Positions 293 through 19,040 of a stretch of DNA of 41,324 bases are shown here, one piece after another. The position numbers and the translations under genes were made by a program. The notes under the pieces are model-generated. The model saw nothing but the letters and a program-made list of their open reading frames with translations. It searched no databases and was not told the origin of the DNA. Position 1 is the stretch's first letter; each line of letters opens with the position of its first letter. Source of the DNA: Acidobacteriaceae bacterium (lineage in GTDB: Bacteria; Acidobacteriota; Terriglobia; Terriglobales; Acidobacteriaceae); NCBI GenBank assembly GCA_030037705.1, contig JASHQE010000231.1, forward strand, positions 1-41,324. The letters are read 5' to 3'.

Positions 293-979
293 TTACTCGC
301 AGAAGTTTGATTCGTTTGAATCCTTCACCCACTTCGGCGCGAACTCGTTCTTGGCCGCTTGTTGTTCGATCATTTTTCTCGCCTCTGCTACGTGCAGCCG
401 CATGAGTCTCTCCGCCTCGTCAGGAAAGTTGTGGTCGATTGCTTCCACGATGCGCAGGTGCTCGTCGTAGACCATGCGCGGATCGCGCATGGCACGCACG
501 GCCATCCCGAGAACGCGATAGCCTTCGGCCAGCCGGAGCAGAATCTTGTTGCGCGAAAGATTCATGATCTGGAGGTGAAAGGCGCGGTCGGCAGCGCCCA
601 TTTCGTCCATTTTGTTTTCGTTCGACAGATCCCAGATCTGGTTCGCCATCTTCCGCAAGGCGGCTACATCGGCTCGCGAAGCATGTTCGCACGCCAGGCG
701 CGCCGCCAGGCCCTCGAGAAACTCGCGTACCTGGTAAGCCTCGCACAGACGAGCCGCATCGATCTTGCCCACGAACACGCCGAGCCGGTCGATGGACTCA
801 ACCAGGCCCATCCATTGCAGTTCGAGCAGCGACTCCCGCACCGTGCCTTGTGCGACGCCCAGCTCCTTGGCCAGGCTCTGCTGCGTCAGGCGTTCCCCCG
901 GCTGGCTCTCGCCCGATAAGATGCGGCGTTGAATCTCCTCCCGCACGTGGTGCCGCCCAACGGGCGATTGAACCGCCAT
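293..979 (-). CDS. GntR family (FCD subfamily) transcriptional regulator
   Basis: A 228-residue regulator. The N-terminal winged helix-turn-helix (about residues 10-75) contains REEIQRRILSGESQPGERL and LAKELGVAQGTVRESLLEL, typical of GntR proteins. The all-helical FCD effector domain follows (about 85-215) with the usual metal-site pattern: D-x3-H in DRAFHLQ, then His in DEHLRIV and LHVAEARK. FCD regulators usually sense sugar acids or other carboxylates; here a sulfosugar or sulfolactate-type ligand is inferred from context. An ATG at 979 with GGAGGT about 10 nt upstream is chosen over an upstream TTG at 1027. Its promoter carries the 16-bp operator also found before the kinase operon, which suggests autoregulation. 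Domain family is certain; ligand and target genes are inference. Confidence 0.9.
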   Translation of the reverse strand: MAVQSPVGRHHVREEIQRRILSGESQPGERLTQQSLAKELGVAQGTVRESLLELQWMGLVESIDRLGVFVGKIDAARLCEAYQVREFLEGLAARLACEHASRADVAALRKMANQIWDLSNENKMDEMGAADRAFHLQIMNLSRNKILLRLAEGYRVLGMAVRAMRDPRMVYDEHLRIVEAIDHNFPDEAERLMRLHVAEARKMIEQQAAKNEFAPKWVKDSNESNFCE

Positions 980-1052
980 ACCTCGCCTTACCTCCGGATT
1001 TCGGAACTGGTTCCGCGTCACTCTCAATTATCGATCGGATTGCAACAGGCGC

Positions 1053-4200: not shown

Positions 4201-4655
4201 TTCAATGGCAGGTCGCGCATCTGCTGCTGGCTCACCGATTGCTCGACCGTAGAGGTGCTGGTCTCGATCTGCTGCGTCTCCGATGACACTGTGATCTCAG
4301 TGCTCTGGGTGCCTACCGAAAGCTGGATGGGCAGGTCCATCGTCTGGCCGGTCAGCAGTTGCAGCGCCGGACGGTCCTGCGTAGCGAAACCTGACGCCGA
4401 GATTTTTAACGTATACGAGCCAATCGGCAGATCGGGAAAGACGAAGAGACCGTTCTCGTTTGTTGTCTCCGTGCGCTTGATGCCGGTATTGGTGTCTGTT
4501 GCAGTCACTGTGGCCTTGGTCATCGCGGCGCCGCTCTGGTCCGTCACCGTGCCGCGGATGATGCCCGTCGATTGGGCCAGGAGGGGCGCCGTCACGCTCA
4601 CCGAAAGCAGCGTTGCGAAACCGATCATGAGTAGTTTCCGAAGTGTGTTGTTCAT
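1206..4655 (-). CDS. TonB-dependent outer membrane receptor, Oar-like
   Basis: A 1149-residue outer membrane protein. A signal peptide (about residues 1-28, ending LLAQ) is followed by a carboxypeptidase-regulatory/CnaB-like beta domain (about 30-110; GIIRGTVTDQSGAAM, ENGLFVFPDLPIGSYTL). A plug-like region follows (DLPLNGRNPLQLTTL, NTYTLDGTIYV), then a large beta barrel ending in VAKIIF with the C-terminal Phe typical of outer membrane proteins. This layout is the expanded acidobacterial TonB receptor family, mostly linked to uptake of oligosaccharides or other large nutrients. ATG at 4655 with AGGAAAGG upstream is preferred over an in-frame ATG at 4712. It lies 172 nt downstream of the oxidoreductase gene on the same strand. 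A role in importing a sulfoquinovosyl compound is inference from context only. Confidence 0.9.
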   Translation of the reverse strand: MNNTLRKLLMIGFATLLSVSVTAPLLAQSTGIIRGTVTDQSGAAMTKATVTATDTNTGIKRTETTNENGLFVFPDLPIGSYTLKISASGFATQDRPALQLLTGQTMDLPIQLSVGTQSTEITVSSETQQIETSTSTVEQSVSQQQMRDLPLNGRNPLQLTTLTAGTVLTTTGTESGQEDNTGLSVNGLRATENTYTLDGTIYVNRFFNSVPTMPNPDALQEFTIQASNYSADHAGAGALVQLSTRSGTDQLHGSAWEYFRNTVLNAWGYFPAATKPPFKLNQFGGTVGGPVFKSKKAFFFFSAEDLQQRSAPATVTTEYPTTAELTGNFSAFKALGVALYNPATGCGFGQTATSNGSGGYNCSGTITDDVSAADAGANAVPIDPLSNAVNAQYMAAEEATGTTASNNTYVKFTSNTNNNIDNTQYLSRLDYALGEKDHLSGRYFYNQDNFQRPFTAPLGFYAENLFRNQAVTISDAHIFSNTLTGAIYAGFYRGGRTQIPEAPGLKTLQQLGQNAPYGNPNENLVPFPGVRVGISGYVNVFSGGALTQDATTFDFHAQAVKLLHRHTLTMGGDLERDRIDMDDYSYTPGDIYSSPAGFTSSRTEVPTGSTLPSGFTKSGSSLADFYTGYGAAYFMDNGRKAYLREIRPALYLQDDWKTTPKLTLNLGLRWDPWMPPIDDNGTLVGFDLANPNFQSTVAPNAPKGVWFVGDPGLPDSVYSNNFKDLAPRVGFAYNVSGNSKTVVRGAYGIFYDFPEGLLYQRTDAMQPVDLYLQINNPPVWDAPFAGFTAPGVTGDPFPRGHVGPSQFKTYTFITPLAGGVLNPASKVEYTQAYNFTVEQELGSGFAVNVGYVGNHAEHVMASRQFNPYVFTPPPGTFESTRLFSGLGAVELADAYDWEKTNALEANVTRRAHSLTLLSNVVWMKTIDIGSSGTEGQAGPSNPYNFDSYKGVADFDQAIRITGSVNYPFPTFHVNNFAAQIVNGWQVNAIVQSQSGLPITITSGVDNSKSGVGNDLGVYNPGVSISRPAGAPKTEWFNPAAFAENPLPSAANGYTQSFGNVPRNSLRGPAYEDTDISLFKDILSDHRVHGQFQAEAFNAWNHTNFANPTSAANSGTFGNITATSTSTGSVNSATTAGAPRVWQFVAKIIF

Positions 4656-4827
4656 GTTTCCCTTTCCTGAAGAAAAGCGCCCATCGGGCGACCTCTCATC
4701 GATACATCGCAACGCAGATCGTCACGGTTTGGCTCTGCTCTCAATCTGGGGGAGGGCGAGAAACAGGCTCCGTGTTTGGGGTTAGTGCGTCCATGTTGCC
4801 GCGCATTCTTGAAAACGCGCGGGGCCT

Positions 4828-6012
4828 CTAAACTAAATCCGCTGAAACAGCAATCTTGTTAGACCAGTACGACTCGAGCGCAAGCATTACGGGCACGCTG
4901 GCTGCCAATCCAATCTCCAGCGGCGCATTGGGCTTTTCGCTCTTGACGATCGCATCAAGAAAATTGCCCGTGTGTGCGCACTCCAGGCTCTCTGCCGAGG
5001 TCACCTCGGTGGGTGCTCCGTCGTTAGGAGTCAATGTGTAGCCCTTGCGCGTCAGGTTTAAAGACCCTTTTGTTCCTTCAAAGAACACCGAAGGATCTAC
5101 GTCGCGGATGGAAAGCACGGACGACTCGAAGTTCAGGTTCCAATTCTTGTACTTCACGATGGCGCTCACCGTGTCGGGATTGGTGAGATCGCCGCGCAAC
5201 TGAAAATCGCCACCCAGCGCGGCTGCGCTTACCGGCTGATCGTCATCGAGCATCCACTGCGCCACGTCTGCCCAGTGGGTGAGAATGTCTGCGAGCAAAC
5301 CGTTGCCGTAATCGTGATACGACCGCCAGGAACTGTAACGCGAGGTCTCATACGGGACCTTCGGCGCGGGGCCAAGAAACAGATCCCACCGCAGCTCCGG
5401 AGGCTTGGGTTCAGAAGGAATCACGCGCCGCTGCCAAGGGAAGTTGCTCCACACCGCGCGCACAAACACGATGTCGCCGAGTTGCCCGGTTGCAAACACC
5501 TCTTCCTTTGCACGCTTGTAGTGCGCGCCGCTGCGTTGCTGCATGCCGCACTGCAGAACGGCCGTGCTCTCCTTTGCAGCCTCGATCAACGTTTCGCGCT
5601 CGTGCCAACGGTGCAGCGTGGGCTTTTCGAGATAGGTGTGCTTGTTTGCGCCCAGCGTGTCCTTTGCAATCTCCACGTGCAGATGATCCGGGGTTGCGAT
5701 CAGCACCGCGTCAATGTCTTTGCGCTCCAGCATCGCCTGGTATTCAACCGATACTGCAGCCTGCGCCGTAGCATCTTTGAACCGGCCCTGGAAATCAGCT
5801 ATCTGCTTGTCGTAGATGTCTGCCAGCGCGCGGATCTGAATCCGCGGGTCCTGTTGAAAGCCACGGCACACATCGGTTGCGCGGCGTCCGCAGCCAATCA
5901 CACCCAGGCCTACGCGGTCGTTTGCTCCATCCACTGCGGCATAAGTGCGCGCATCCATGCTGCGCGCAGCCACTGCGGCGGCTCCGGCATATAAAAACTC
6001 GCGGCGGTTCAC
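4828..6012 (-). CDS. Tat-exported Gfo/Idh/MocA family oxidoreductase
   Basis: A 394-residue NAD(P)-dependent oxidoreductase-fold protein. It begins with a twin-arginine signal (NRREFLYAGAAAVAA), then a Rossmann motif GLGVIGCGRRATD (about 34-46), an EKP motif at residues 129-131 that carries the family lysine, and a C-terminal alpha/beta domain with LLADILTHWADVAQWML. A GTG start at 6012 overlaps the TGA of the upstream isomerase (GTGA), so the two are translationally coupled. The family includes sugar dehydrogenases and the NAD-dependent retaining glycosidases GH109 and GH188; GH188 contains sulfoquinovosidases. Whether this protein is a glycosidase or a simple dehydrogenase cannot be decided by eye. 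No GH31-type sulfoquinovosidase is present in the window, which makes the question relevant. Confidence 0.85.
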   Translation of the reverse strand: MNRREFLYAGAAAVAARSMDARTYAAVDGANDRVGLGVIGCGRRATDVCRGFQQDPRIQIRALADIYDKQIADFQGRFKDATAQAAVSVEYQAMLERKDIDAVLIATPDHLHVEIAKDTLGANKHTYLEKPTLHRWHERETLIEAAKESTAVLQCGMQQRSGAHYKRAKEEVFATGQLGDIVFVRAVWSNFPWQRRVIPSEPKPPELRWDLFLGPAPKVPYETSRYSSWRSYHDYGNGLLADILTHWADVAQWMLDDDQPVSAAALGGDFQLRGDLTNPDTVSAIVKYKNWNLNFESSVLSIRDVDPSVFFEGTKGSLNLTRKGYTLTPNDGAPTEVTSAESLECAHTGNFLDAIVKSEKPNAPLEIGLAASVPVMLALESYWSNKIAVSADLV

Positions 6013-6905
6013 GATGTGAAAGCCTCCTTCATCGCTTTGTAAGCGGGGGCGATTACTTCCGCGCCGTTCTTCGAAAGATCCTCGCGCTCCTCTTCGTTCT
6101 CCACCCAGCCTTTCCATCCGATCTCCTTGATCGTCGCCGCCACTTCGGCGAGCGGAAACGTGCCCGTACCGAGCGTAACCAGATGGCCGTTGCGGTAATC
6201 GCGCAGATGAAAGCCGACGATGCGCCGCGAATGCTTACGAATAAACGCCGGAACGTCTGCGCCGCCGTGATAGGCATGTCCCGCATCCAGCACGAAGTGA
6301 ACGAGTGTGGGATCGGTTTGCGTATAGAGAGCTTCTATTTCACCGATTTTGGACTCAAACTCCCACCAGTGGTTGTGATAGGCGACAGGAATGCCGACGC
6401 TCTGTGCAAAGCGTCCGGCAGTGTTGAGCGCATCGATCTTGCGTTTGAGTTCATCTGCATCGGCAGCCGGAGCGCCGCTGAGAATCAGGTGTTTTGCGCC
6501 CAGCGCCACGCCGCCGCGCGCCACCGGCTCATAGACTGAAGCAGCCGCAACGCGCGTTTGCTGGTCGTAGCCTTCGTTCGGGAAAAAGATATGAATGCCG
6601 AAAAAGGTGAGCCCGGTCTGTTCGATACTGCGGCGCGCCGGTTCGGACGCGGCGAACTGCTCACTTACATTGCGAAAGCTCGACTCGAATCCCTGATAGC
6701 CGATCTGCTTTACCTGTGCCAGCGCGTAGAGAAAGCTCTGAAAATTCCCGGGGTCGACGGGAAATGCGTTCAACTGTACACCGAAATGAATGCCGGCGGG
6801 AACACGACCGGTCTCTGCCCACAAATCGCGCGATGCGATCGGCAAAAGACTTTCGGCAGCGCCCAGAATGCTCAGCGTCCTCAGAATCTCTCTCCGCGTC
6901 CTCAT
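6009..6905 (-). CDS. Tat-exported sugar phosphate isomerase/epimerase-like TIM barrel protein
   Basis: A 298-residue AP-endonuclease-2/xylose-isomerase-like TIM barrel. Residues 1-30 form a Tat-type signal (RTRREILRTLSILGAAESL). The barrel carries family motifs such as AYHNHWWEF, FVLDAGHAYHGGADV, IVGFHLRDY, and a late ENEEER, giving the His/Glu/Asp set that usually binds a divalent metal. The ATG at 6905 is preceded by AAGGAGG; an earlier ATG at 6920 would translate the Shine-Dalgarno sequence itself. It overlaps the downstream oxidoreductase by four bases. Such oxidoreductase/TIM-barrel pairs are common in Acidobacteriota, Planctomycetota and Bacteroidota and are thought to act on oxidised glycosides. 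The substrate here is unknown. Confidence 0.85.
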   Translation of the reverse strand: MRTRREILRTLSILGAAESLLPIASRDLWAETGRVPAGIHFGVQLNAFPVDPGNFQSFLYALAQVKQIGYQGFESSFRNVSEQFAASEPARRSIEQTGLTFFGIHIFFPNEGYDQQTRVAAASVYEPVARGGVALGAKHLILSGAPAADADELKRKIDALNTAGRFAQSVGIPVAYHNHWWEFESKIGEIEALYTQTDPTLVHFVLDAGHAYHGGADVPAFIRKHSRRIVGFHLRDYRNGHLVTLGTGTFPLAEVAATIKEIGWKGWVENEEEREDLSKNGAEVIAPAYKAMKEAFTS

Positions 6906-6985
6906 GGCCCTCCTTGCCACCTGCTCACATTCAGTTTTGACTCATGCCGCAGGGGATCACGCCGCTGGGCAAGCGTTGAAGACTT

Positions 6986-7652: not shown

Positions 7653-7750
7653 TGACTCGGATACCGTGACTTTATGCTTTCGGTTCGCCAAACTGAATGC
7701 GCCGGGCTCAAGCTTGATCCGCAATAAATCCGAGAATGGAGAGGAACGAA

Positions 7751-8752
7751 ATGCCTACGAGTTTGACGCCCGGCAAGATCGCAGGGCTGAATGCCGTCTC
7801 CGATAGCCGCGGCGTCATCGCTGCTGTCGCCATGGATCAACGCGGCCTGCTCAAAAACATGCTGGCGCGCGAGCTCGGCCTTGCCGACCCGCCGGTGGAG
7901 AAGATATCGGAGTTCAAACAGCTGGTCGCGAGAACTCTTACGAAGGAAGCCTCATCCATTCTGCTCGATATCGAGTACGGCCTCGAGGCCACCCGGCACA
8001 TCCATGGCAAAGGACTATTGATGGCCTACGAACACGCGGGCTATAGCCCCGACAAACCCGAGCGGCTGCCTTCGCTTTTTGAAGGATGGTCTGCGTTGCG
8101 CATCAAGGAGGCTGGGGCGAACGCCGTCAAGATCCTCGTCTACTACACGCCCTTCGAAAAAGAATGGGTCAACGATCGCAAGAAGGCGTGGATCGAGCGC
8201 ATCGGCGCCGAGTGCCGCGCCGTCGATATCCCGTTCTTCCTCGAATTTCTCGGTTATGACGTGCACGGTGAGGGCGAAGCAAGTCTCGAATACGCGCGCC
8301 GCAAGCCGGAGATCGTCCTCCGCTCCATCGAAGAGTTCACCAAGAACCGCTATGGCGCCGATGTGTTCAAAGTCGAGATCCCCATCCAGATGGCCTTTGT
8401 CGAGGGCACGCGCGCCTTTAAGGGCCAAAAGCTGCACACACGCGCGGAAGCTATGGAGATCACCCGCGCTGCAGTCGCGCTCACCGGGAAGCCGATTGTC
8501 TATCTTTCTGCCGGCGTCAGCAGCGACGTATTCATCGAGACACTGGAACTCGCCGTGGAAAGCGGGGTGCACTTTCACGGCGTCCTCGGCGGCAGAGCTA
8601 CATGGCAGGATGGAGTGCCCGTCTACGCCAGGCACGGCGCTGCTGCGCTCGAAGACTGGTTGAATACGAAGGGCCTCCAGAATGTACGCGATATCAACAA
8701 CGTGCTCAAATCCGCGTATCCTTGGCATGAGGCCCGCAGCGTGCAGGCGTAG
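7751..8752 (+). CDS. LacD/YihT-type class I aldolase; proposed sulfofructose-1-phosphate aldolase
   Basis: A 333-residue TIM-barrel Schiff-base aldolase of the tagatose-1,6-bisphosphate aldolase (LacD) family. Family marks are VAMDQRG near the N-terminus, LLDIEYGLEA, Lys127 in NAVKILVYY, and the catalytic Lys207 in DVFKVEIP, positions that agree with LacD. The start is ATG 7751 with GAGAGG upstream rather than ATG 7736. LacD cleaves tagatose-1,6-bisphosphate to DHAP and glyceraldehyde-3-phosphate; the related YihT cleaves 6-deoxy-6-sulfofructose-1-phosphate to DHAP and 3-sulfolactaldehyde. The nearby SuyAB-like genes favour the second substrate. It heads a unit with the permease and the M24-like gene and carries an operator-like site shared with the regulator and kinase operon. 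Fold is secure; substrate is inferred. Confidence 0.85.
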   Translation: MPTSLTPGKIAGLNAVSDSRGVIAAVAMDQRGLLKNMLARELGLADPPVEKISEFKQLVARTLTKEASSILLDIEYGLEATRHIHGKGLLMAYEHAGYSPDKPERLPSLFEGWSALRIKEAGANAVKILVYYTPFEKEWVNDRKKAWIERIGAECRAVDIPFFLEFLGYDVHGEGEASLEYARRKPEIVLRSIEEFTKNRYGADVFKVEIPIQMAFVEGTRAFKGQKLHTRAEAMEITRAAVALTGKPIVYLSAGVSSDVFIETLELAVESGVHFHGVLGGRATWQDGVPVYARHGAAALEDWLNTKGLQNVRDINNVLKSAYPWHEARSVQA

Positions 8753-8783: not shown

Positions 8784-10079
8784 TTGCCCCAGGCTCGCGA
8801 GATTTCAACGGCTGAGACCAGCGCTGCGGCGCACAACTCCGCGCGCCGCCGATCCTGGTTGATTCTCAGTCTCCTCTTTTGCCTCACCGTCATCCTGTTC
8901 ATCGCGCGCCAGGCGTTTTCGGTGATGGCGCCCGTGCTGCGAGCGGCCTTTCATCTCTCGAATGCGGCCTATGGGCGCATCGTTGCGGCGCTCGGCTTCG
9001 GCATGATGTCCGGCGAGTTTCCGATGGGTTATCTGATGGACCGACTCGGCGCGCGGCTGGGTTTATCGGTCGCGGTCTGCTGGTGGTCGGCGGCTACGGG
9101 ATCGCTGGCACTGGCGGGATCGGGATTGCAATTCGGCCTGTCGCAATTCTGGAAAGGAACCGGGGAGTGCGGTGCGTATTCGGGCGGCGTGAAAACGGTG
9201 ACACGCCTGTTTGAAAAAAAGGACCGTACGCTGGCCATCGGTATTTTCAACGGCGGCAGCGTCATCGGCGCTACGCTTGCCCCGCCGCTCATCGTTTATC
9301 TGCTCCAGCACTACGGCTTTCGCATTGCGTTTCTGGTGCCCGCGCTTGCGGGCGTGTTGTGGATCCCTGTCTGGTGGCTCACGTATGGTCATCAGCCAAA
9401 GACAGAAGCCGACCTCTTGCAAACCCGCGCTGCGTTTGGCGCCATGCTCGGCAAGTCCTCTTCCTGGGCCGTGATGTTGTGCCGCTTTTTCATTGGGCCC
9501 GTGATGCAGTTTTACTGGTACTGGATCCCCAACTATCTTTACAGTGCCCGCCACATGACGATGACGCAGATCGGCATTCTGGCGTGGATTCCATTTCTGA
9601 TGGGCGATGTGGGCGGCGTGGCCGGCGGTTGGGTTGCAGGCGTGCTGCTGCGCCGGGGCGTTTCAGTGCGCAACGCGCGCCGCATTACGATGTACGGCAG
9701 CGCCGCGCTCTGTGCCGCGAGCCTGGCGGTGCCCTCTGCGCCGGGCATTGGCATGGCGCTCACCATGATCAGCTTGGCGATTGCCGCCGACAACTTTCTT
9801 TCCGCGAATATGTTCGCCGCAATCACCGATCTGTTTCCTGACGCACAGGTGGGCCGCGCAACGGGATTGACGGGTATTGCCGGCGGACTGAGCGGGATGT
9901 TGTTTCCGCTGCTCACGGGCATTCTGGTGGATCGCGTATCGTACAGGCCGGTTTTTCTGCTAGTGGCCATCATGCCGCTGCTTGGAACTCTCGCGCTCTT
10001 TGCCGTGGGCCGGCAGTATCGCCTGGAGAGCCGGCTCGCGCAGCCTGCAGCAAGACAACCTCAGGAACTGGTGCCATGA
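8784..10079 (+). CDS. MFS permease (anion:cation symporter-like)
   Basis: A 431-residue, 12-helix major facilitator protein resembling the hexuronate/glucarate/phthalate (ACS) branch, whose members carry organic anions. The first helix is WLILSLLFCLTVILFIARQAF. The loop between helices 2 and 3 has MGYLMDRLGARLGL, the family's G-x-L/M-x-DRxG motif. The start is TTG 8784, because GGAGG (8775-8779) is well spaced and the nearby ATG at 8780 is out of frame. It begins 32 nt after the aldolase and overlaps the next gene by ATGA. An anionic sulfonated sugar or sulfolactate would suit the family, but the substrate is inference. Confidence 0.85.
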   Translation: MPQAREISTAETSAAAHNSARRRSWLILSLLFCLTVILFIARQAFSVMAPVLRAAFHLSNAAYGRIVAALGFGMMSGEFPMGYLMDRLGARLGLSVAVCWWSAATGSLALAGSGLQFGLSQFWKGTGECGAYSGGVKTVTRLFEKKDRTLAIGIFNGGSVIGATLAPPLIVYLLQHYGFRIAFLVPALAGVLWIPVWWLTYGHQPKTEADLLQTRAAFGAMLGKSSSWAVMLCRFFIGPVMQFYWYWIPNYLYSARHMTMTQIGILAWIPFLMGDVGGVAGGWVAGVLLRRGVSVRNARRITMYGSAALCAASLAVPSAPGIGMALTMISLAIAADNFLSANMFAAITDLFPDAQVGRATGLTGIAGGLSGMLFPLLTGILVDRVSYRPVFLLVAIMPLLGTLALFAVGRQYRLESRLAQPAARQPQELVP

Positions 10080-11203
10080 AAGACGATCCATTTGGTTTGG
10101 ACAAAGACCGTCTCGCAGAGTTGAGCGCGAAGCGCCGCAAGGTTGCAGCGTTTCTCGCAGAGGAAGGACTCGACGCAATCCTGATCGCCCGCCACGAAAA
10201 TATTGCGTGGCTCACTGCCGGACTGGTTGACGTGCGCGTGGGTATGTTGCGCGAGTCGGGTCCGGCCTGCCTGCTCATCACGCGCGAAGGAGCTGCTTAC
10301 TATCTCACGACCAACAACGAAGCGCAGCGGCTCGCCGATGAGGAGTTCGCGGGACTTGGCTTCGAGCCGGTCGTGAAGCCGTGGCATGCAAACGACCTGC
10401 GCGCGTCGGTCAATTCTATTGTCGGCTCCGGCATTGCCGCCGGCGATATGGGCCAGGAGGGCTGCCGGACTGCTTCGATCCAGCGCCTGCGCTCCGAACT
10501 CACCTATGGCGAAGCGGAACGCTACCGATGGCTTGGCTGGCATGCCGCCGAGGCTGCGGCCGTGGTGTTGCGCCGTTTCGAGCCGGGCATGAGCGAGCGG
10601 GCCCTGCAGGCCATGCTGGCGGAGCAACTGATCGGCAGAGGCATTTTGCCGAGCGTGTATCTTACCTCCACCGATGCGCGGGTTACGCAGTATCCGCATC
10701 CCGTGCCGCGGGCTGGAGTGCTGAAACAACTGGGCATGCTGTGCTTTTGCGCGCGGCGCTGGGGACTTACGGTCTCGATGACGCGCTTTGTTGGCTTTGG
10801 TCCGCTGCCGGCTGTATTCGAGGAGCATCTCGCTGTAGTCACGCAAGTCAACGCGCATCTGCTTGGCGCAACGCGCGAAGGAGCGACCAGCGATGCATTG
10901 TTCGCCGTCGCCAAGCAAGCCTACGCGTTACTCGGCCACGCTGGAGCGGAGCTGCTGCATCACCAGGGTGGCGCAACCGGTTATCTCGAACGCGAATGGT
11001 TTGCGCGCCCCGGCGGCGCCGAACGTATTACTGCGCAACAGGCTCTGGCCTGGAACCCGAACCTGCGCGGCGCCAAGGTAGAAGACACGTACCTGCTCCA
11101 AGGCGGCGAGCTGAAGCTGCTTACGGCCACGCCGGAACTGCCTTCGGTGACCACGACCCTGAACGGCTCAGAATATCGTTCCGCCGATATCCTCAGGAGA
11201 TAG
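10076..11203 (+). CDS. M24 (creatinase/prolidase-fold) homologue lacking metal-binding aspartates
   Basis: A 375-residue protein with a creatinase-type N-terminal domain (about 15-140; IARHENIAWLTAG) and a C-terminal pita-bread domain. Active M24 metallopeptidases have Asp-x10-Asp, His, Glu and Glu. Here the Asp region reads MLCFCARRWGLTVSMTRFV (about 221-239) with both Asp replaced, while His295/296 and Glu336 (KVEDT) remain. It is therefore probably not a dinuclear metalloprotease; creatinase shows that metal-free members can be hydrolases. Its ATG overlaps the permease stop (ATGA), so it is coupled to transport. The role in the pathway is unknown. Confidence 0.75.
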   Translation: MKDDPFGLDKDRLAELSAKRRKVAAFLAEEGLDAILIARHENIAWLTAGLVDVRVGMLRESGPACLLITREGAAYYLTTNNEAQRLADEEFAGLGFEPVVKPWHANDLRASVNSIVGSGIAAGDMGQEGCRTASIQRLRSELTYGEAERYRWLGWHAAEAAAVVLRRFEPGMSERALQAMLAEQLIGRGILPSVYLTSTDARVTQYPHPVPRAGVLKQLGMLCFCARRWGLTVSMTRFVGFGPLPAVFEEHLAVVTQVNAHLLGATREGATSDALFAVAKQAYALLGHAGAELLHHQGGATGYLEREWFARPGGAERITAQQALAWNPNLRGAKVEDTYLLQGGELKLLTATPELPSVTTTLNGSEYRSADILRR

Positions 11204-11227: not shown

Positions 11228-12205
11228 TTACTTTGCAGCCAGCCTCTTCGGCGTCGCGCTGCGCACCGCGCTGATGGAAGGCTTGCCATCCAACACGCGG
11301 GCTACGTCTTCGCAGATGGCGCGCGATACCCGATCCTGCGCTTCGCGCGTAAAAGCCGCAATGTGCGGAGTGAGGATCACATTGGGCAGGGATTCGAGCT
11401 CGCCGGTCTTCGGTGGCTCCTCGCTGCGCACGTCGAGGGCCGCGCCGCCGACGATGCCGGCTTTTAGCGCTTCCACCAGATCCGGCTCGGAAACCACTCT
11501 GCCGCGCGAAGTATTGATGAACAGCGCGCCTCGCTTCATCTTGCCGAAGCGCTCGCGATTCATCAATCCCATGGTCTGTGGAGTTGCCGGAAGATGGCAT
11601 GAGACGACATCAGCGCGCGCAAGCAGATTGTCGAGATCCGTTAATTCGGCCTGCAGTTCGCTGAGCAGGATATTGTCCTGGGTTAAAAACGGATCGTACG
11701 CCAGAATCCTCATGCCGAAGGCCATCGCACGCCGCGCGGTGAGATAGCCGATCTTGCCTGCGCCGATAATGCCCAGCGTTTTGCCATAGAGCTCCGTGCC
11801 CATGAACCTGTTCCGCTGCCAGTTGCCGTCTTTCGTGTCCTGATCCGCCGCGGGGATGAAGCGCGCCAGCGAGAGCATCATGCCCATGGAGATTTCGGCC
11901 ACGCTGATGGCGTTCTGGTCCGGCGTGAACGAAACGACGATGCCGGCCTGCTCGGCGTGCTTCACGTCCACGTTGTCCAGGCCCACGCCGGCGCGGCCGA
12001 TGACCAGAAGCTCCGGCGCCGCATCGATCAGAGCGGCAGTCACGGGGGTCTGATTGCGCACAATCAGCGCGCGGCAGTTTCTCACTTGCTCTGCCAGCAA
12101 ATCGGGTTTTTTCCAAAGCTCCGCATCAAGCAGCACGTTAAAACGGGAGCGGAGCGCCTCGAAAGCCGCGCCGTGCATGTACTCGGAGATCACAATATCC
12201 GGCAT
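11228..12205 (-). CDS. slcC: D-2-hydroxyacid dehydrogenase; proposed (S)-sulfolactate dehydrogenase
   Basis: A 325-residue member of the D-3-phosphoglycerate dehydrogenase family. It has an N-terminal flavodoxin-like substrate domain, the NAD-binding motif LGIIGAGKIG (about 144-153), and catalytic Arg234 (NTSRGRV), Glu263 (SEEPP) and His281 (LTPHIAAF). In sulfolactate degraders SlcC oxidises (S)-sulfolactate to 3-sulfopyruvate, and a MPDIVISE-type start recalls it. It is the last gene of the long operon, 3 nt after the ComC-like gene. The pairing of a PGDH-family and an Ldh2-family enzyme beside SuyAB matches the known (S)-to-(R)-sulfolactate inversion route. Family is secure; specificity is inferred from context. 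Confidence 0.75.
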   Translation of the reverse strand: MPDIVISEYMHGAAFEALRSRFNVLLDAELWKKPDLLAEQVRNCRALIVRNQTPVTAALIDAAPELLVIGRAGVGLDNVDVKHAEQAGIVVSFTPDQNAISVAEISMGMMLSLARFIPAADQDTKDGNWQRNRFMGTELYGKTLGIIGAGKIGYLTARRAMAFGMRILAYDPFLTQDNILLSELQAELTDLDNLLARADVVSCHLPATPQTMGLMNRERFGKMKRGALFINTSRGRVVSEPDLVEALKAGIVGGAALDVRSEEPPKTGELESLPNVILTPHIAAFTREAQDRVSRAICEDVARVLDGKPSISAVRSATPKRLAAK

Positions 12206-12208
12206 AAA

Positions 12209-13267
12209 TCAGCAGAACACCTCATGACAGTTAAACGCGACTTTTAAGCGGGAACACCACTGTTCGATTTCGGCGACCGTTTCATCAGAAACCGGAATGC
12301 CTTGCGCGCGATTCAGTTCAGCCGTTCGCGCCGAGCGTTCTCCCGGTACCAGAATCTCTTCCGCGCCCGGCCGTTTCTTCGATGTTTTGATGCGGTCGAT
12401 AGTCTCGTCCATACGCCGCAGATACTCGGCGTAGTCAAGAAACGCGTCGATATGAAAAAGGCAGAAGAAGTGGCCTACGCCTTGCTTGCGATCGAGATGC
12501 TTGTACATTGAGCCCACATCCGGACCGATCGCCGCGCCTGAGAGCACGCCGCTGAACATTTCCACCATCAGTGCAAGCGCATAGCCTTTGTGTCCGGCCA
12601 TGGTGAGCACGGTGCCGAGCAGTGCCTCGGATGCGTCCATGGTCGGATTGCCGTCGCGATCGAGCGCCCATCCCTCGGGAATCGCCGCTTTTCTCTTTTG
12701 GGCCGCGATGATGTTGCCGCGCGCAACGGTTGATGTGGCCAGATCGATCTTCACCGGAAATCCCTTGCCGGTTGGAAACGACGCGGCGATGGGGTTCGTG
12801 CCGAAGAAGGCCTCATATCCGCCTGCAGGCGACATGGCCGGTTCGCCGTTGGTCATCGCCAGCAGCACCATTTTCTGACCGGCCGCGTAGTTCGCATACC
12901 AGGAGAGTGCGCCGAAGTGCTGCGAATTGCGGACCGTCGCCGTCGCGACGCCATTCTGCCTGGCAAGCGGCATGAGCAGGTCAAGAGCCTTCCGCGCCTG
13001 CGCCTGCCCGAGCCCGTTGCCCGCATCCAATGCTAGAACGCTGCCGGTGCGCCGGTCGATGGTGAGCGCAGCTTTCGGATCAATGAGTCCAGCTTCAATG
13101 CGCTTCAAATAAATGCTCAGGCGCGACACGCCGTGCGTGGGCACGCCGTGCAAATCCGCATCCACCAGGGATTCCGCAAAAAGGGCCGCATCTTCCGGCG
13201 GCACGCCCGTGCCGCCCGCCAGTTGCGCGGCGAGATTTTGCAAGCCCGCTTTCGGATATCGATGCAT
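12209..13267 (-). CDS. comC: Ldh2-family dehydrogenase; proposed (R)-sulfolactate dehydrogenase/sulfopyruvate reductase
   Basis: A 352-residue NAD(P)-dependent oxidoreductase of the malate/L-lactate dehydrogenase 2 family. Signatures are DLHGVPTHGVSRL (36-50), the catalytic-His segment NSQHFGALSWYA (His117), and FGTNPIAASFP. In sulfolactate pathways the ComC/SlcD homologue reduces sulfopyruvate to (R)-sulfolactate, the SuyAB substrate. Other family members act on malate, ureidoglycolate or 2,3-diketogulonate, so the family alone does not fix the substrate. It lies between the SuyB-like and SlcC-like genes, 108 nt after the former. Confidence 0.75.
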   Translation of the reverse strand: MHRYPKAGLQNLAAQLAGGTGVPPEDAALFAESLVDADLHGVPTHGVSRLSIYLKRIEAGLIDPKAALTIDRRTGSVLALDAGNGLGQAQARKALDLLMPLARQNGVATATVRNSQHFGALSWYANYAAGQKMVLLAMTNGEPAMSPAGGYEAFFGTNPIAASFPTGKGFPVKIDLATSTVARGNIIAAQKRKAAIPEGWALDRDGNPTMDASEALLGTVLTMAGHKGYALALMVEMFSGVLSGAAIGPDVGSMYKHLDRKQGVGHFFCLFHIDAFLDYAEYLRRMDETIDRIKTSKKRPGAEEILVPGERSARTAELNRAQGIPVSDETVAEIEQWCSRLKVAFNCHEVFC

Positions 13268-13375
13268 AGAACCTCAGTTACACAATTCATGCGCACAGTG
13301 TCGCGCGGTCTCGGAGACTTCCTGCAAGAAAGCAGTGCGCAGCCGGCTCGCGCTCACGAACCGGCCCCATCTCCG

Positions 13376-14539
13376 CTACGCGCTGCGATAGAGCTTGGTC
13401 ATTACGAACTCGCGATGGCCAAGCGCCTCTGCTGCCGTAAATCGTCCATTCGCCGTGCGCACGATCATTTCGATCAGTGCATCGCCGGCCTGGTCCAGGG
13501 TCATCTCGCCCTGCAGAATCGGTGAGACATCGAGGTCGATGTGGTCGGCCATGGTCTTCACAGTCTTCGGATTGCCCGAGAGCTTGATGACCGGCTCGAT
13601 CGGATTGCCGATCACGTTGCCCTGGCCGGTTGGGAAGAGATGCACGACCGCGCCCGAAGCAGCCCATAGTGTCACGGCTTCCGCCGCGGCGCTCGATGTG
13701 TCCATGTACCAGAGGCCCTGGTCGGTGGGCGCCTGGGCCGGCTTCAGGCAGCCCACGAATTTCGTCTTCTTGCCCAGCTTCTCCACATTGCCCAACGCCT
13801 TTTCTTCAATCGTCGTAAGCCCGCCGGCGATGTTGCCTTTGGTTGGCTGCGACTCGGAGAGGTCGTTTGTCTTCTCGTTGAACACGAGCTTCGTGTAATC
13901 CTCGAATGCTGCCATGAACTGCTTGCGCACCGCCTCGTTCGCAGCCTTCGCCGCAACGATGTGCTCCGCGCCCGTGAGCTCTGACGTCTCGCCGAACGAT
14001 GCCGTGCCGCCAAGGGCGCAGTGCTTGTCAATCACGTTGCCGACAGTGGGGCAGCTCGAAAGGCCCGTGGTTGTGTCGGACTCGCCGCACTTTACGCTGA
14101 TGTAGAGCTCACTGAACTTGCATTCGGTCCGCTGCAGCTCCGACGCCCACTGCACAAATTCCTTCGCTTTCACACTGGCCTGCGCAATCGTCGCGATGTC
14201 ACCCTGGCCCTCGATCGAAAATCCCGCCACCGGCTTGCCCGTCTTCGCAATGCCGTCGACGATGCGCTGCGTCCATCCCGGCTCGATGCCGATGACAACA
14301 ACAGCCGCCACATTCGGGTTCGATCCGGTACCGATCATGGTGCGGAAAAAGAGTTCCAGGTCTTCGCCGAACTGCAGCCGCCCGTAGGCGTGCGGCAGCG
14401 CCAGCGTACCCTTGATGTTGTTGCCTACGGCCTCACATGCGGCATTCGAAATGTCGTCCACCGGCAGAATGATGACATGGTTGCGCACGCCTACGCGTCC
14501 GTTTTCGCGCCGGTACGCAAGAATCTTCTGATCTTTCAT
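13376..14539 (-). CDS. suyB: (R)-sulfolactate sulfo-lyase large subunit, SuyB-like (UxaA family)
   Basis: A 387-residue protein of the altronate/galactarate dehydratase large-chain family. It contains [27 protein letters not shown], the Cys-bearing [18 protein letters not shown] (151-168), [20 protein letters not shown] and [16 protein letters not shown]. As I remember characterised SuyB, these blocks agree closely, including a C-terminus near [15 protein letters not shown]. SuyAB splits (R)-sulfolactate into pyruvate and sulfite in the cytoplasm. The ATG at 14539 overlaps the SuyA stop (TAATG) and has GAGGTGG upstream, so it is preferred to ATG 14548. The alternative is a split altronate dehydratase, but no uronate isomerase or altronate oxidoreductase is nearby. 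Confidence 0.8.
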
Positions 14540-14820
14540 TACGCCCACCTCTTCGTCTTCAAGTTATGCACGTGCACGTGCTGCCCGGCGCGGATGGGCT
14601 GAACCACTTTTCCAATCTCGCAGCCATACTTGATCACCGTATCGCCCACGGCAAAATCTTTGAGCGCCAGCTTGTGGCCCAGCGGGATATTTTGCTCCGT
14701 CTTTGCCGCAAGCGGCTTGTTGGTCGAAAGATCCCGGCCGGCGCACTCGGTGCCCGCGGCGATATCGACCACCGCCACGCCCACCGTGTCCGCCGTATCA
14801 TGCACTAGAAAATGAATCAT
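14539..14820 (-). CDS. suyA: (R)-sulfolactate sulfo-lyase small subunit, SuyA-like (SAF domain)
   Basis: A 93-residue SAF-domain protein, the size of the small chain of split UxaA-family lyases. [21 protein letters not shown] and a C-terminus [12 protein letters not shown] match the SuyA pattern as I recall it. It pairs with the SuyB-like protein immediately downstream, with a one-base stop/start overlap that suggests balanced translation of two subunits. It lies 46 nt after the ALDH gene. Confidence 0.8.
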
Positions 14821-14866
14821 CAGGTTTGCTCCCTTTCTGCTTAAACTCCGCTTCTACACCCCAGCT

Positions 14867-16309
14867 CTACACTCCGGCTATGGACACGTGCTTTGTTTCG
14901 AGGAAGGCATCCAGTCCCTCGATGCCCAGCTCGCGCCCCCAGCCGCTCTGTTTCATGCCGCCGAAGGGGCTCTGGCTCGTCGTTGGCGCGCCATCGTTGA
15001 TGCCCAGCGTACCCGCTTCGATCCGCTCCGCCAGCCGGAACATGCGCGCAATATCGCGCGTCATCGCGTATGCGCTCAATCCATATTCGCAGCCATTCGC
15101 AAGCTCAATCGCTTCTTCCTCTGTCGCAAAAGTTGCAATCGGCGCAACCGGCGCAAAGGTCTCCTCGCACATGCACAGCGCCTTTTTCACCGCTCCATCG
15201 ATCACGGTCGGCTCAAGAAAATATCCCTTCGAACCAGCCATTCGCTTGCCGCCGCAGAGAACTTTGCCGCCATATTGCACCGCATCTTCAATCTGCCGCA
15301 GCGCGCCATCGAGCGCAGCTTGATTGATCACGGGTCCCACGTCGACACCCGGCTCAAGGCCAGAGGCCGTCTTGAGTTTTTGCACTCCGGCTATAAACTT
15401 GTCGAGGAACGCGTCGTGAATCGAGCGCTGTACATAGATGCGATTCGCCGCAATGCAGGATTGCCCCGTATTGCGGAACTTCGCGATCAGCGTTTCGCGC
15501 ACGGCTTGATCGAGATCGCAATCCTCGAAGACCAGCAAGGGGGCGAGTCCGCCCAACTCCAGCGACAAGGGCTTGATCGAGCCGGCTGCGCCGCGGATCA
15601 GCTCGCGCCCCACCTCGGTCGAACCGGTGAAGCTGATCTTCCGGCAGATCGGATTCGTGAGGAATTCCTCGGAGATCATCTGTGCCTTGCCGATGATGAG
15701 CTGAAATACGCCGCCTGGAATGCCCGCTGCTTCGACGCACTCGGCAAATGCGATGGCGCAGAGCGGCGTCTGCGACGAGGGTTTCAAGATCACCGGGCAG
15801 CCCGCGGCCAACGCCGGTGCAGCTTTGCGCACCGCCAGAACCAGAGGGAAGTTCCACGGCGAAATGGCTCCGACTACACCGATCGGCGTCTTCACTGTAA
15901 AGTTACGCTTGCCCAGTGTTTGATTCGGAATCATCCGCCCATACGCGCGTTTACCTTCTTCGGCGAACCAGCGCAGGTGATCTTCTGTCATCGCCACTTC
16001 ACCGCGGCTCTGCGCCAGCGGCTTGCCGTTTTCGAGCGTTATGGTATGCGCAATCCCGTCGGCGCGGCGATTCACCTCATCTGCGACGCGATGGAGCAGT
16101 GCGCCACGCTCTTTTGCCGTCATCGCGCGCCACGCGGGGAGGGCTGCCTGCGCTGCTTCGAGCGCTGTCTTTACCTGCTCGCGGCTGACCGCGGCAACGT
16201 GGGCAAACACTTCGCCCGTTGCGGGGTTCGTTACCGGAATTAGGTCGCCGGTTTCGACCCACTTGCCATCGAGATAGGCTTTGTACAATTTCTCTAGCAC
16301 CTGAGCCAT
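14867..16309 (-). CDS. Aldehyde dehydrogenase; proposed sulfolactaldehyde dehydrogenase
   Basis: A 480-residue NAD(P)-dependent aldehyde dehydrogenase of the succinate-semialdehyde (GabD) type. It shows Asn153 (SPWNFP), KPSSQTP, Glu251 (LELGG), catalytic Cys285 (GQSCIAANR) and EETFAPVAP. GabD-type enzymes oxidise 3-sulfolactaldehyde to sulfolactate in sulfoglycolytic bacteria. Its product would be (S)-sulfolactate, which explains the inversion enzymes downstream. The usual ELGGNAP segment reads ELGGLAP, a small departure near the active site that could bear on substrate choice. It sits 20 nt downstream of the isomerase-like gene. Enzyme class is certain; the aldehyde is inferred. Confidence 0.85.
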   Translation of the reverse strand: MAQVLEKLYKAYLDGKWVETGDLIPVTNPATGEVFAHVAAVSREQVKTALEAAQAALPAWRAMTAKERGALLHRVADEVNRRADGIAHTITLENGKPLAQSRGEVAMTEDHLRWFAEEGKRAYGRMIPNQTLGKRNFTVKTPIGVVGAISPWNFPLVLAVRKAAPALAAGCPVILKPSSQTPLCAIAFAECVEAAGIPGGVFQLIIGKAQMISEEFLTNPICRKISFTGSTEVGRELIRGAAGSIKPLSLELGGLAPLLVFEDCDLDQAVRETLIAKFRNTGQSCIAANRIYVQRSIHDAFLDKFIAGVQKLKTASGLEPGVDVGPVINQAALDGALRQIEDAVQYGGKVLCGGKRMAGSKGYFLEPTVIDGAVKKALCMCEETFAPVAPIATFATEEEAIELANGCEYGLSAYAMTRDIARMFRLAERIEAGTLGINDGAPTTSQSPFGGMKQSGWGRELGIEGLDAFLETKHVSIAGV

Positions 16310-16329
16310 ACGCTCACCTCATCTGCGTC

Positions 16330-17682
16330 TCATACCCACTCTAGACAAAGCGCCCGCGCCAGCCTCCGGAACGTCTCGGCCTGTGTGCCAAACGAGAGCA
16401 GCACGTGATGCGGCATTCCTGCATGCACCAGCCTGTCGAATCGCGCCGGAACATCGGACTCCGCCACCTCCACCAGCACACTATTTCCCGTAAGCTTGCG
16501 CCTTCCAGGAATGGTGTGCCCTTCGAATGCGGTCATGTGGTACGCGTCATCGCACCGCCACAGCCGCGTGATCGTCACCGGCTGATCGACGAGGATCTCC
16601 GCATTCACCACCAGCGGCCGCACAATATTGAAGTGAGCGGCCAGCGTGGGTCCGCCTGCGCTGCCGATCGGATTGCACATATTCATCGGCGCCATGCCCG
16701 GGTGCCAGAAAAAGATCGTATCGCGGTCGTGCTCCAGCCAGTCAGTCAGAAATCCGGGACCCATACCGAGCGATGCGCTTATCAGGCTGCCGATGCATCC
16801 ATCCACGTCTCCTTCGATGGAAACCGCGCGTCCCTCGGTCCCTAGCCGCGAAACGGCCAGATACGGCCATTGTCCCAGCAGGTTGGGAAGCTCCGGCCAA
16901 CATTGCAGCGCAAGCCCATCCAGGCCCTCTTCTTCGATGATCTCCAGCATCGCCAGGTAGCAGCGCGAGTTCATGGCCAGCGCGTCTGCGGTTACGCCGT
17001 CCATAGGCATCTTTAAATCGAGCACGCGCTGCACATCCTTTTTTACGGCGGCTTCCTGGATCGCGTGCACGCGTTCCATAAACTGCGGCAGGCTGAGCGG
17101 ATGTAACTGCGTGCCCATGGTCCTGCGCAGAAGAAATGGCTCCGCCGCGAGATCAATGAATCCAGGTGCGTGCGTGCCGATCATACCCACCTTGGCGCGG
17201 CGCAGCGCGCCCGCGGTCCGCGCAATCGCGATCGCGCGTGTCAGATCCGCGCGCAGCGCCTCATCGTCCGGATCGCCATAGACCAGTTCGAAGGCGTGCC
17301 CGGCCTGGCGCAGCGACGAGCCCCACAGATGCTGCCCCACCAACGAGCACGAACTCACCTTGCCGTCGCCGGGCCGCTCCGGTGTAGCCCACAGCACCAC
17401 GGGATCAGGCCATTGCTGTGCCAGCGTCAGTGCGAGTTGCCCATGGCCCATCGAAGGCTGCAGCATTACGAGCGCTTCGCATCCGGCGTCTCGAATCAGC
17501 TTGAGCGCCGCTTTGATCGTCGCATCGTCCACAACCGGCGCTTCGGCTCCGACGATCTGATAACCGACGCTCTTCAGCGCTTCAAGGCTGCGGCGGCAAA
17601 TGATCTGGTTCCACTCCTGATCGAAGCCGGGCCGCTTGCGCCCCAAGATCAGCACGCCCACCTTGCTAACGAGTTCCTGCAT
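16330..17682 (-). CDS. L-fucose/L-arabinose isomerase-like protein; proposed sulfoquinovose isomerase
   Basis: A 450-residue protein of the fucose-isomerase-like superfamily, shorter than the roughly 590 residues of E. coli FucI. Likely metal-site segments are EEEGLDGLALQCWPEL, SIEGDVDGCIGSLIS and FWHPGMAPMN; the C-terminal beta domain ends with GMPHHVLLSFGTQAET. Members interconvert aldoses and ketoses using Mn2+. In context it could turn sulfoquinovose into 6-deoxy-6-sulfofructose, replacing the unrelated YihS of E. coli. ATG 17682 with GGAAGGA just upstream is preferred over ATG 17703. It starts 25 nt after the kinase gene. Superfamily is likely; reaction is inference. Confidence 0.7.
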   Translation of the reverse strand: MQELVSKVGVLILGRKRPGFDQEWNQIICRRSLEALKSVGYQIVGAEAPVVDDATIKAALKLIRDAGCEALVMLQPSMGHGQLALTLAQQWPDPVVLWATPERPGDGKVSSCSLVGQHLWGSSLRQAGHAFELVYGDPDDEALRADLTRAIAIARTAGALRRAKVGMIGTHAPGFIDLAAEPFLLRRTMGTQLHPLSLPQFMERVHAIQEAAVKKDVQRVLDLKMPMDGVTADALAMNSRCYLAMLEIIEEEGLDGLALQCWPELPNLLGQWPYLAVSRLGTEGRAVSIEGDVDGCIGSLISASLGMGPGFLTDWLEHDRDTIFFWHPGMAPMNMCNPIGSAGGPTLAAHFNIVRPLVVNAEILVDQPVTITRLWRCDDAYHMTAFEGHTIPGRRKLTGNSVLVEVAESDVPARFDRLVHAGMPHHVLLSFGTQAETFRRLARALCLEWV

Positions 17683-17707
17683 ATCCTTCCTTCCACGCGC
17701 CATCGGT

Positions 17708-18880
17708 TCAATGAAACAGCGGAGCGCAGTAGGGAACGAGATCGCCTACCAGCGGCCGCAGATACTCGAAGAAACTCTCTCTCACGGGAATCGCGCCGTC
17801 GCCGACCCATTCTGAGGGAATCGGCCTTTCTACTTCGGCGACTCGCTCCAGCGCGACAAACTCATAACCGGTCGCGCACTTTGTCGTGAGCGGCTGCAGG
17901 GCAACCATCTTCTCCGTTTCGCCGGCAAGCAGACCGCGCACCGCGGCCCGTCCCACAAGATCGGCATCTTTCTGGTCCCGCGCCGAAGCGTGCAGTATCG
18001 ATGAGCGGCCCAGCAGCCCCGGCTTCTCGCTGCGGCAGCGCATCTTCAGATTGCGCGCCACAGCTTCAGACAGAAATTGCGCTACGCCGCCGGTGATCGG
18101 CCGCGCGAGCGGATCATTCTGCGCCGGATCGGCCACCTGATATACATACTTGCCATCCCGGTCGCGAATTCCCTCGGCCACCACCACAATTGCCCATCCC
18201 TGCTTCGCAACGATGCGGTCGAGCGAGGCGAGAAATTCATGCAAGTCGAAGGCGCGCTCGGGCAGATAGACGAGATGAGGCGCGTCCATTTCATCGCATT
18301 TGCCGGCTGCTGCTGCGGCTGCGAGCCATCCTACGCTGCGGCCCATCGTTTCCAGAATCGAGACCGGCTGCGGCAGCGAGCGCACATCCATCCCAAGATC
18401 GCGCGTGGACTGTGCAATGTAGCGCGCGGCGCTCGCATAACCGGGACAGCGGTCCGTTGCGGCGATGTCGTTGTCCACGGTTTTGGGCACGCCCAGCATG
18501 TTTATCTCGTAACCGGACTCACGGCAGAACCGGCTCACTGTCTGCGCACCGCGCATCGTACCGTTGCCGCCCAGAAAGAGAAGATCGCGCACATGGTTGC
18601 GCCGCAGATAATCGAGCAGCTTCGCAAGATCTTCTGTGGAGGATTTTGCGCGCGAAGAACCTAGCGCCGCGCCGGGACTCACGCGCAGCAAGTTGAGATC
18701 AGCCGCCGAGAGCCGGCTCAGGCTGACTGCACCACCCGCAACGAGGCCCCTGATCCCGGACCGCGCTCCGAAGATATGCTCGAACTGGCCCCGCGCTTCT
18801 TCCACGATGGCGGCAAGGGTCGCGTTCAGAACCTGCGTCGGCCCGCCGCCCTGCACCACCAGCAGGTTGCGCTCTGTCAT
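17708..18880 (-). CDS. PfkA-family 6-phosphofructokinase-like kinase; proposed sulfofructose 1-kinase
   Basis: A 390-residue phosphofructokinase-fold protein. It shows GGGPTQVLNATL (phosphoryl-donor loop), GGNGT (104-108), the catalytic PKTVDND (132-138) and MGR (179-181). In bacterial PFKs a Gly in GGDG favours ATP and a Lys before TIDND is linked to the PPi-dependent branches. This protein has that Gly, the Lys, and Asn instead of the first Asp, so donor choice is open. PFKs phosphorylate C1 of fructose-6-phosphate; sulfofructose carries a sulfonate where the 6-phosphate sits, so it is a plausible substrate. ATG 18880 with GAGG upstream is preferred over GTG 18910. It is the first gene of the operon behind an operator-bearing promoter. 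Confidence 0.8.
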   Translation of the reverse strand: MTERNLLVVQGGGPTQVLNATLAAIVEEARGQFEHIFGARSGIRGLVAGGAVSLSRLSAADLNLLRVSPGAALGSSRAKSSTEDLAKLLDYLRRNHVRDLLFLGGNGTMRGAQTVSRFCRESGYEINMLGVPKTVDNDIAATDRCPGYASAARYIAQSTRDLGMDVRSLPQPVSILETMGRSVGWLAAAAAAGKCDEMDAPHLVYLPERAFDLHEFLASLDRIVAKQGWAIVVVAEGIRDRDGKYVYQVADPAQNDPLARPITGGVAQFLSEAVARNLKMRCRSEKPGLLGRSSILHASARDQKDADLVGRAAVRGLLAGETEKMVALQPLTTKCATGYEFVALERVAEVERPIPSEWVGDGAIPVRESFFEYLRPLVGDLVPYCAPLFH

Positions 18881-18959
18881 CTGCGCCTCAATCCGGCTTG
18901 GCAAGACCACCCCCTATCACGCGCGCACGCCAGTGTATTTGAGGCTTGCCAAAGCAATT

Positions 18960-18989
18960 ACTTTAAAATCGATTAAGATCGATTGTCAA
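18960..18989 (-). promoter_or_regulatory. Promoter of the kinase-suyAB operon with operator between -35 and -10
   Basis: On the minus strand TTGACA (18989-18984) and TAAAGT (18965-18960) are 18 nt apart. The spacer begins with ATCGATCTTAATCGAT (18983-18968), identical in sequence and position to the site in the GntR promoter. The predicted leader is about 70 nt. The site also lies in the divergent region before the plus-strand isomerase at 19041 and could control both directions. Confidence 0.75.
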
Positions 18990-19040
18990 GTTGACCTCGC
19001 CCGGAGTAAAGTGAACAGGCTGAATCGAGGAGAGTTCACC

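Follow-up and report, generated by a model that had tools for sequence, protein, structure and literature searches.

Sulfoquinovose (SQ), which forms the headgroup of the plant sulfolipid, ranks with the most abundant organosulfur compounds, and large amounts of it reach soils. Here we describe a gene cluster for its predicted degradation in a genome of the family Acidobacteriaceae (G000, an assembly of 332 contigs and 5.1 Mb that is 85% complete). The cluster spans positions 293-18910 of the 41,324-nucleotide contig C304, which is called the window below. The closest described systems are two Embden-Meyerhof-Parnas-type (sulfo-EMP) routes. That of E. coli (YihS, YihV, YihT, YihU) shares the intermediates we propose, and its aldolase is a PF01791 member like ours, with the catalytic lysine in common. 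Its AGE-family isomerase and PfkB-family kinase are, in contrast, not orthologous to ours: no cluster protein matched PF07221 (AGE) or PF00294 (PfkB) in profile searches. E. coli also reduces sulfolactaldehyde (SLA) to 2,3-dihydroxypropane-1-sulfonate (DHPS). The second route, sulfo-EMP2, joins the FucI-family isomerase SqvD to the PF00365 kinase SqiK in Bacillus urumqiensis and Megamonas rupellensis (Liu et al. 2021, reviewed in PMC9594981; pairing also in PMC12890257). It has the same types of isomerase and kinase as the present locus, and aerobic Bacilli oxidise SLA to sulfolactate, as we predict here. It differs in its class II (PF01116) aldolase SqiA, where the present locus has a class I PF01791 enzyme. 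The present locus further lies in Acidobacteriota, encodes an isomerase distant from the model for the SQ isomerase SftI, and is predicted to cleave sulfolactate by SuyAB encoded in the same operon. Because a class I aldolase takes the place of SqiA, we file the cluster as an EMP/EMP2 hybrid. Such hybrids, mixing enzymes from both sets, have been reported in Actinobacteria, Firmicutes and Proteobacteria (PMC10599462); a Vibrio hybrid has the reverse mix, E. coli-type enzymes with SqiA (PMC13372026).

An earlier note on positions 16330-18880, which take in two genes of the cluster, had placed a fucose-isomerase-like protein and a PfkA-fold kinase there, in the roles that YihS and YihV have in E. 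coli. Both genes lie at these coordinates, on the minus strand, and an arabinose/fucose-isomerase fold, profiles and conserved gene order agree with the assignment. Its further proposal, that the two form a distinct assembly of the pathway, is not borne out, as SqvD with SqiK is the published sulfo-EMP2 combination (PMC9594981). The isomerase and kinase types are thus already known, as are hybrids in other phyla. What appears undescribed is the host phylum, this particular mix of enzymes, the presence of a sulfolactate-sulfolyase module in the same locus, and the residue evidence for the kinase. A link between Acidobacteria and sulfoglycolysis was not found in open-access full texts, subscription papers lying outside the search.

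Two further systems resemble the lower half of the locus. The tandem sulfofucolytic-sulfolactate sulfolyase pathway of Paracoccus wurundjeri converts, within one organism, a C6 sulfosugar to a C3 sulfonate that passes through SlcC, ComC and SuyAB with release of sulfite, but its upper half is of Entner-Doudoroff type and a SlaB-type dehydrogenase was not identified there (PMC12421959). The metagenome-assembled genome (MAG) of the peatland acidobacterium SbA5 was reported to encode suyAB, slcC, comC and dsrAB (PMC6018796). Its contig OKRB01000086, our L015, carries the same type of locus; the published account starts from sulfolactate, its main text does not mention SQ, and no mention of the adjoining sulfosugar genes was found.

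We propose, at odds of roughly two in three, that the cluster fully degrades a 6-deoxy-6-sulfo-aldohexose, most likely SQ, to central metabolites and sulfite. SQ would be isomerised to sulfofructose by the metal-dependent AraA/FucI-fold enzyme, phosphorylated at O1 with ATP by the PfkA-type kinase, and split by the class I LacD/YihT-type aldolase into dihydroxyacetone phosphate (DHAP) and SLA. The SlaB-like aldehyde dehydrogenase (ALDH) would oxidise SLA to (S)-sulfolactate, which SlcC and ComC would convert through sulfopyruvate to (R)-sulfolactate, from which SuyAB would eliminate sulfite and leave pyruvate. The locus as a whole would thereby yield DHAP, pyruvate and sulfite from one sulfohexose. 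Uptake may proceed through a TonB-dependent receptor and a major facilitator superfamily (MFS) transporter, with control by a GntR protein. We infer every substrate in this scheme (SQ included), ATP as the donor, uptake and regulation from features that can be seen directly: gene content, kept order, folds, conserved catalytic residues, an altered 6-phosphate pocket and the clade membership of SuyB.

Seven genes run on the minus strand in the order kinase, isomerase, SLA dehydrogenase, suyA, suyB, comC and slcC, with intergenic gaps of -10 to 108 bp; genes for the aldolase, the MFS transporter and an M24-fold protein lie opposite on the plus strand. At least 16 further loci of Acidobacteriaceae hold an orthologous kinase-isomerase pair. 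Orthologues are present in ten Acidobacteriaceae/Acidobacteria loci (L013-L022) and in the genomes G015, G022, G198, G340, G372 and G447. The order kinase, isomerase, (gntR), slaB, suyA, suyB, comC, slcC is kept at every locus with enough contig. Ten Acidobacteriaceae loci span the block and keep the seven-gene order and strand (in one of them the contig breaks off within the kinase); seven of these have the aldolase close by within the stretches examined. We exclude a chance association because the orthologous pairs and the same gene order recur across Acidobacteriaceae loci. The distribution is sparse and family-restricted: the isomerase is present in 5 of 396 evenly sampled Acidobacteriota genomes, all in one family, three of them nearly complete, few-contig assemblies that are possibly isolates.

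The isomerase (457 aa) lacks any match in a Pfam profile search, and its top NCBIfam model is SftI (149.8 bits, E 1e-43; equivalog cut-off 700). Its AlphaFold model (pLDDT 80) aligns near full length with L-arabinose isomerases (Z 33) and L-fucose isomerases (Z 28-29.5). A diverse alignment of the family shows little or no variation at E297, D321, H334 and H432/H433, and E297 aligns on the EGD motif of arabinose isomerase; these positions fit the AraA/FucI metal site and may provide the ligands.

Related isomerases occur in other settings. Enzymes 45% identical to it stand in G040 (L049) with GH92, GH76, DUF5054 and a 64%-identical SlaB, and in G052 (L050) with a Cgl0159-like aldolase and an SSF symporter; SuyAB was not seen at either locus, and these isomerases probably serve other sugars or partial pathways. 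Plasmids of Marinovum and Paracoccus (L028, L081) combine a FucI-like isomerase with genes for a LacD aldolase, an ALDH and a dihydroxyacetone kinase, which suggests aldol cleavage of an unphosphorylated ketose. Plasmid pZZM402 of Zymomonas mobilis (L025) encodes an SqvD-like isomerase (288 bits to SftI), a class II aldolase, an aldose epimerase, a Gfo/Idh/MocA protein and a succinate-semialdehyde dehydrogenase (SSADH), possibly a sulfoglycolysis cluster in an industrial Zymomonas strain. A plasmid search with the isomerase of Candidatus Chlorohelix allophototropha as query returned no close Bacillota sequence.

The kinase reading frame runs from a GTG at 18910 to 17708 (400 aa); Met11 (position 18880) does not vary among ten orthologues and is hence likely the true start. 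The protein matches PF00365 (E 3e-51) and PRK14072 (382 bits, above the cut-off of 273), and its model (pLDDT 77) aligns with the pyrophosphate (PPi)-dependent phosphofructokinase (PFK) 3hno at Z 36.8. Using E. coli PfkA numbering, we compared 16 cluster kinases. All retain T125, D127 and D129 of the T-x-D-N-D motif together with R72, R243 and R252. All also carry P162 and L249. In E. coli PfkA, and in nearly every separate PFK that these genomes encode, the two positions are R162 and H249, ligands of the 6-phosphate of fructose 6-phosphate (F6P). At position 104, a marker of the phosphoryl donor (Gly for ATP, Asp in GGxD for PPi), all 16 have GGNG, as against D104 in 7/7 non-cluster PRK14072-like PFKs compared; G104 and K124 also occur together in the aligned ATP-dependent PFK of Trypanosoma. 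A motif [ED]-K246-P247-G248 is likewise universal among the cluster kinases and recurs in the Chlorohelix PFK; it is missing from the 14 further PFK-family sequences compared, of which seven are PRK14072-like and seven classical. From the residues R162P, H249L, G104 and [ED]KPG, we predict that the cluster kinase is not an F6P kinase.

The neighbour of the Chlorohelix PFK is an SqvD-like isomerase that scores 343 bits against SftI; sulfite reductase genes lie upstream. The cluster kinases group as a single clade (99/100) in a maximum-likelihood tree. The Chlorohelix PFK falls outside this clade, on a long branch whose placement is unsure; either shared ancestry or convergence may explain the common motif. 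The plasmid in question (L024, NZ_CP128401.1) encodes an SSADH-like protein, sulfite reductase, siroheme genes, the PFK and isomerase, an ABC transporter, PGDH and a threonine-synthase-like protein. It probably bears a sulfosugar cluster of Chloroflexota, and the threonine-synthase-like protein is possibly a cysteate synthase.

The aldolase is of class I (PF01791) and keeps the equivalents of the YihT Schiff-base lysine K193 and of R253; its closest curated relatives are tagatose-1,6-bisphosphate aldolases. In a plasmid protein search, SuyB was 61-72% identical to 13 plasmid-borne proteins, the next group, generic UxaA, falling below 40%. Among the 13 are a Cupriavidus pinatubonensis protein next to hpsN/hpsO, of DHPS degradation, and one from a Rhodococcus cluster with GntR, SuyA, SuyB, an ALDH, an MFS protein, an slcC-type hydroxyacid dehydrogenase and a comC-type Ldh. 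A SAF-domain SuyA thus adjoins a GD_AH_C SuyB of the sulfonate clade, the combination by which we recognise an (R)-sulfolactate sulfo-lyase. SLA dehydrogenases are marked by an Arg/Arg (or His/Asn) sulfonate pair and a W/F-N-F/V tripeptide, the arginines having been named in RlGabD (PMC10599462). The cluster ALDH carries WNF, R161 and R279. Judging from the SuyB clade, the Ldh_2 score and the ALDH residues, the operon very probably handles sulfolactate derived from SLA, and we regard the lower half of the pathway as solid.

Several observations weigh against SQ as the substrate. Relatives of the isomerase whose function is unknown or different reach 76-155 bits against the SftI model, so that with a weak score and similar relatives the specificity of the isomerase for SQ is not given by sequence alone. 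LacD-type aldolases accept the D-fructose and D-tagatose configurations without discrimination, and the arginine pair of the ALDH is also present in SSADHs; we therefore dropped the idea that this pair proves a sulfonate substrate. Nor was a YihQ-type sulfoquinovosidase found in G000 at its 85% completeness: GH31 (glycoside hydrolase family 31) matches were partial and about 26-35% identical, GH188 not having been searched genome-wide. The sugar might instead be sulfofucose (6-deoxy-6-sulfo-D-galactose), degraded via sulfotagatose and sulfotagatose-1-phosphate, which a LacD aldolase would again split into DHAP and SLA. The affinity of the aldolase to tagatose-1,6-bisphosphate aldolases fits such a route, as does that of the isomerase fold to arabinose isomerases, which can use D-galactose. 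The route has been discussed in Paracoccus, a soil bacterium that degrades sulfofucose with SuyAB, but its proteins were not induced there (PMC12421959). The best curated model of the isomerase is moreover an SQ isomerase, and SQ is much more abundant in nature; we regard sulfofucose as rather unlikely.

It is less likely still that the isomerase, kinase and aldolase serve the breakdown of a common, non-sulfonated sugar, with the sulfolactate module beside them being incidental or serving co-regulated use of plant debris. Clusters lacking sulfonate genes do surround related isomerases in Deinococcus, in Marinovum and Paracoccus (with a dihydroxyacetone kinase and an ABC transporter) and, with GH92/GH76, in G040. 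The GH31 enzyme of the Deinococcus cluster is closest to alpha-xylosidase, and we have for that reason withdrawn this cluster as proof of an SQ role for the LacD aldolase. Against an ordinary sugar, kinase, isomerase and sulfolactate module stay joined at every locus of adequate length, the kinase pocket is changed, and the ALDH needs a source of SLA while a DHPS dehydrogenase gene was not recognised in the cluster. It is very improbable that the operon has taken in an ordinary 6-phosphofructokinase, whether dependent on PPi or on ATP. The best curated model of the kinase is indeed diphosphate--fructose-6-phosphate 1-phosphotransferase (PRK14072), but the R162P and H249L exchanges and G104 in place of D104 speak against this, as does a separate PFK of the genome (contig C321, 30% identical), which has D104 and keeps all four phosphate ligands, R162 and H249 included. 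Degradation of SQ remains the reading we prefer.

The features of the cluster are collected in Table 1. The GntR protein is 67% identical to that encoded between isomerase and slaB in most relatives, and the cluster therefore extends to the left end of the window. The M24-fold protein recurs in Acidobacteriaceae sulfo clusters (L059:10931-12064, L061:14024-15166) and in a Deinococcus isomerase-LacD cluster (L026:475-1536). Its usual metal-binding Asp positions look replaced (CARRWGLTVSMTR), and it may not be a peptidase. Beyond the kinase, an exported xylose-isomerase-like protein is encoded at 18636-19898 (+); the listed start of this reading frame overlaps the kinase and the true one is probably further in. 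A homologue sits upstream of the kinase in several relatives.

Table 1. Features of the predicted sulfosugar cluster in the window
Feature	Position	Strand	Remarks
Predicted sulfofructose (6-deoxy-6-sulfoketohexose) 1-kinase, PfkA superfamily, PRK14072 subfamily	17708..18880	-	G104 ATP-type, [ED]KPG motif
Predicted sulfoaldose-sulfoketose isomerase, AraA/FucI fold, distant SqvD/SftI relative	16330..17703	-	Candidate metal ligands E297, D321, H334, H432/H433
Predicted SLA dehydrogenase, SlaB-like ALDH	14867..16309	-	WNF oxyanion tripeptide; R161/R279 match RlGabD R171/R289
SuyA, (R)-sulfolactate sulfo-lyase small subunit	14539..14820	-	SAF domain, 93 aa; 10-bp overlap with suyB
SuyB, (R)-sulfolactate sulfo-lyase large subunit	13376..14548	-	GD_AH_C subunit; sulfonate-degrader clade
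ComC-like (R)-sulfolactate dehydrogenase, Ldh_2	12209..13267	-	Best NCBIfam model L-sulfolactate dehydrogenase, 265 bits, cut-off 500
SlcC-like (S)-sulfolactate dehydrogenase	11228..12205	-	D-2-hydroxyacid dehydrogenase family
Predicted sulfoketose-1-phosphate aldolase, class I LacD/YihT family	7736..8752	+	PF01791; Schiff-base Lys, GRAxW kept
MFS transporter, repeatedly next to aldolase	8784..10079	+	
M24/creatinase-fold protein	10076..11203	+	Recurrent in sulfo clusters
GntR/FadR-type regulator, likely for cluster	293..1027	-	67% identity to relatives' GntR
TonB-dependent outer-membrane receptor, possible uptake	1206..4712	-	Operon-adjacent also in L018, L019, L051
Exported Gfo/Idh/MocA oxidoreductase	4828..6117	-	65% identical homologue adjoins G372 kinase
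Exported xylose-isomerase-like TIM barrel, pairs with Gfo/Idh/MocA oxidoreductase	6009..6920	-	

Two sets of proteins were considered as glycosidases. The Gfo/Idh/MocA and TIM-barrel genes of the window (4828-6920, minus strand) have a 65% identical counterpart pair adjoining the kinase in G372 (L061:11593-13679), and could form an oxidoreductive glycoside-cleaving pair. That the Gfo/Idh/MocA protein is a sulfoquinovosidase of family GH188 was considered and rejected: among solved structures it comes closest to other dehydrogenases (8tdf, E 4e-23), and 8qc2 and 8qc3, which we take to be GH188 structures, match only at 5e-7 to 7e-5. An exported DUF5054 protein (PF16477) with a GH38-like HxD motif is found at L059:12209-14293, L060:13545-15710, L049:13022-15316 and, in G000, on contig C284:1227-2015. 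Its gene lies beside the cluster in L059 and L060, and L062 holds a C-terminal part of it. The protein occurs in 9 of 19 genomes tested as against 5 of about 295 others of the phylum sample, two samples that are not phylogenetically matched. In G000, G035 and G060 the gene is located elsewhere, near a different ALDH. We have not accepted it as the missing glycosidase, and infer at most a candidate one.

As for the fate of the sulfite, dsrA scored above the curated cut-off in 3 of the 13 cluster-bearing genomes checked (G035, which is SbA5, G060 and G063), with a fragment in G025 and none in G000. This count led us to reject dissimilatory sulfite reduction as a general feature of the cluster; sulfite respiration is possible in some strains and is not a property of the cluster. 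We offer one wider scenario as a tentative conjecture, itself rather unlikely. An ATP-dependent sulfofructose kinase lineage would have arisen from PPi-PFK ancestors by D104G, loss of the 6-phosphate ligands and gain of [ED]KPG, perhaps in separate events in Acidobacteriota and Chloroflexota. The Acidobacteriaceae locus would mineralise SQ to sulfite, to be respired in the strains with dsrA or its fragment, such that one soil bacterium could take the sulfolipid sugar to sulfide.

The kinase motif provides a sequence test by which more sulfofructose kinases may be found among proteins annotated as PPi-phosphofructokinases. Acidobacteria are one of the commonest soil phyla and go unmentioned in the sulfoglycolysis papers searched. 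The locus suggests a source of sulfolactate for the published peatland SuyAB genes, and with one locus covering every step between the sulfosugar and sulfite, the second organism that is usually required would become dispensable.

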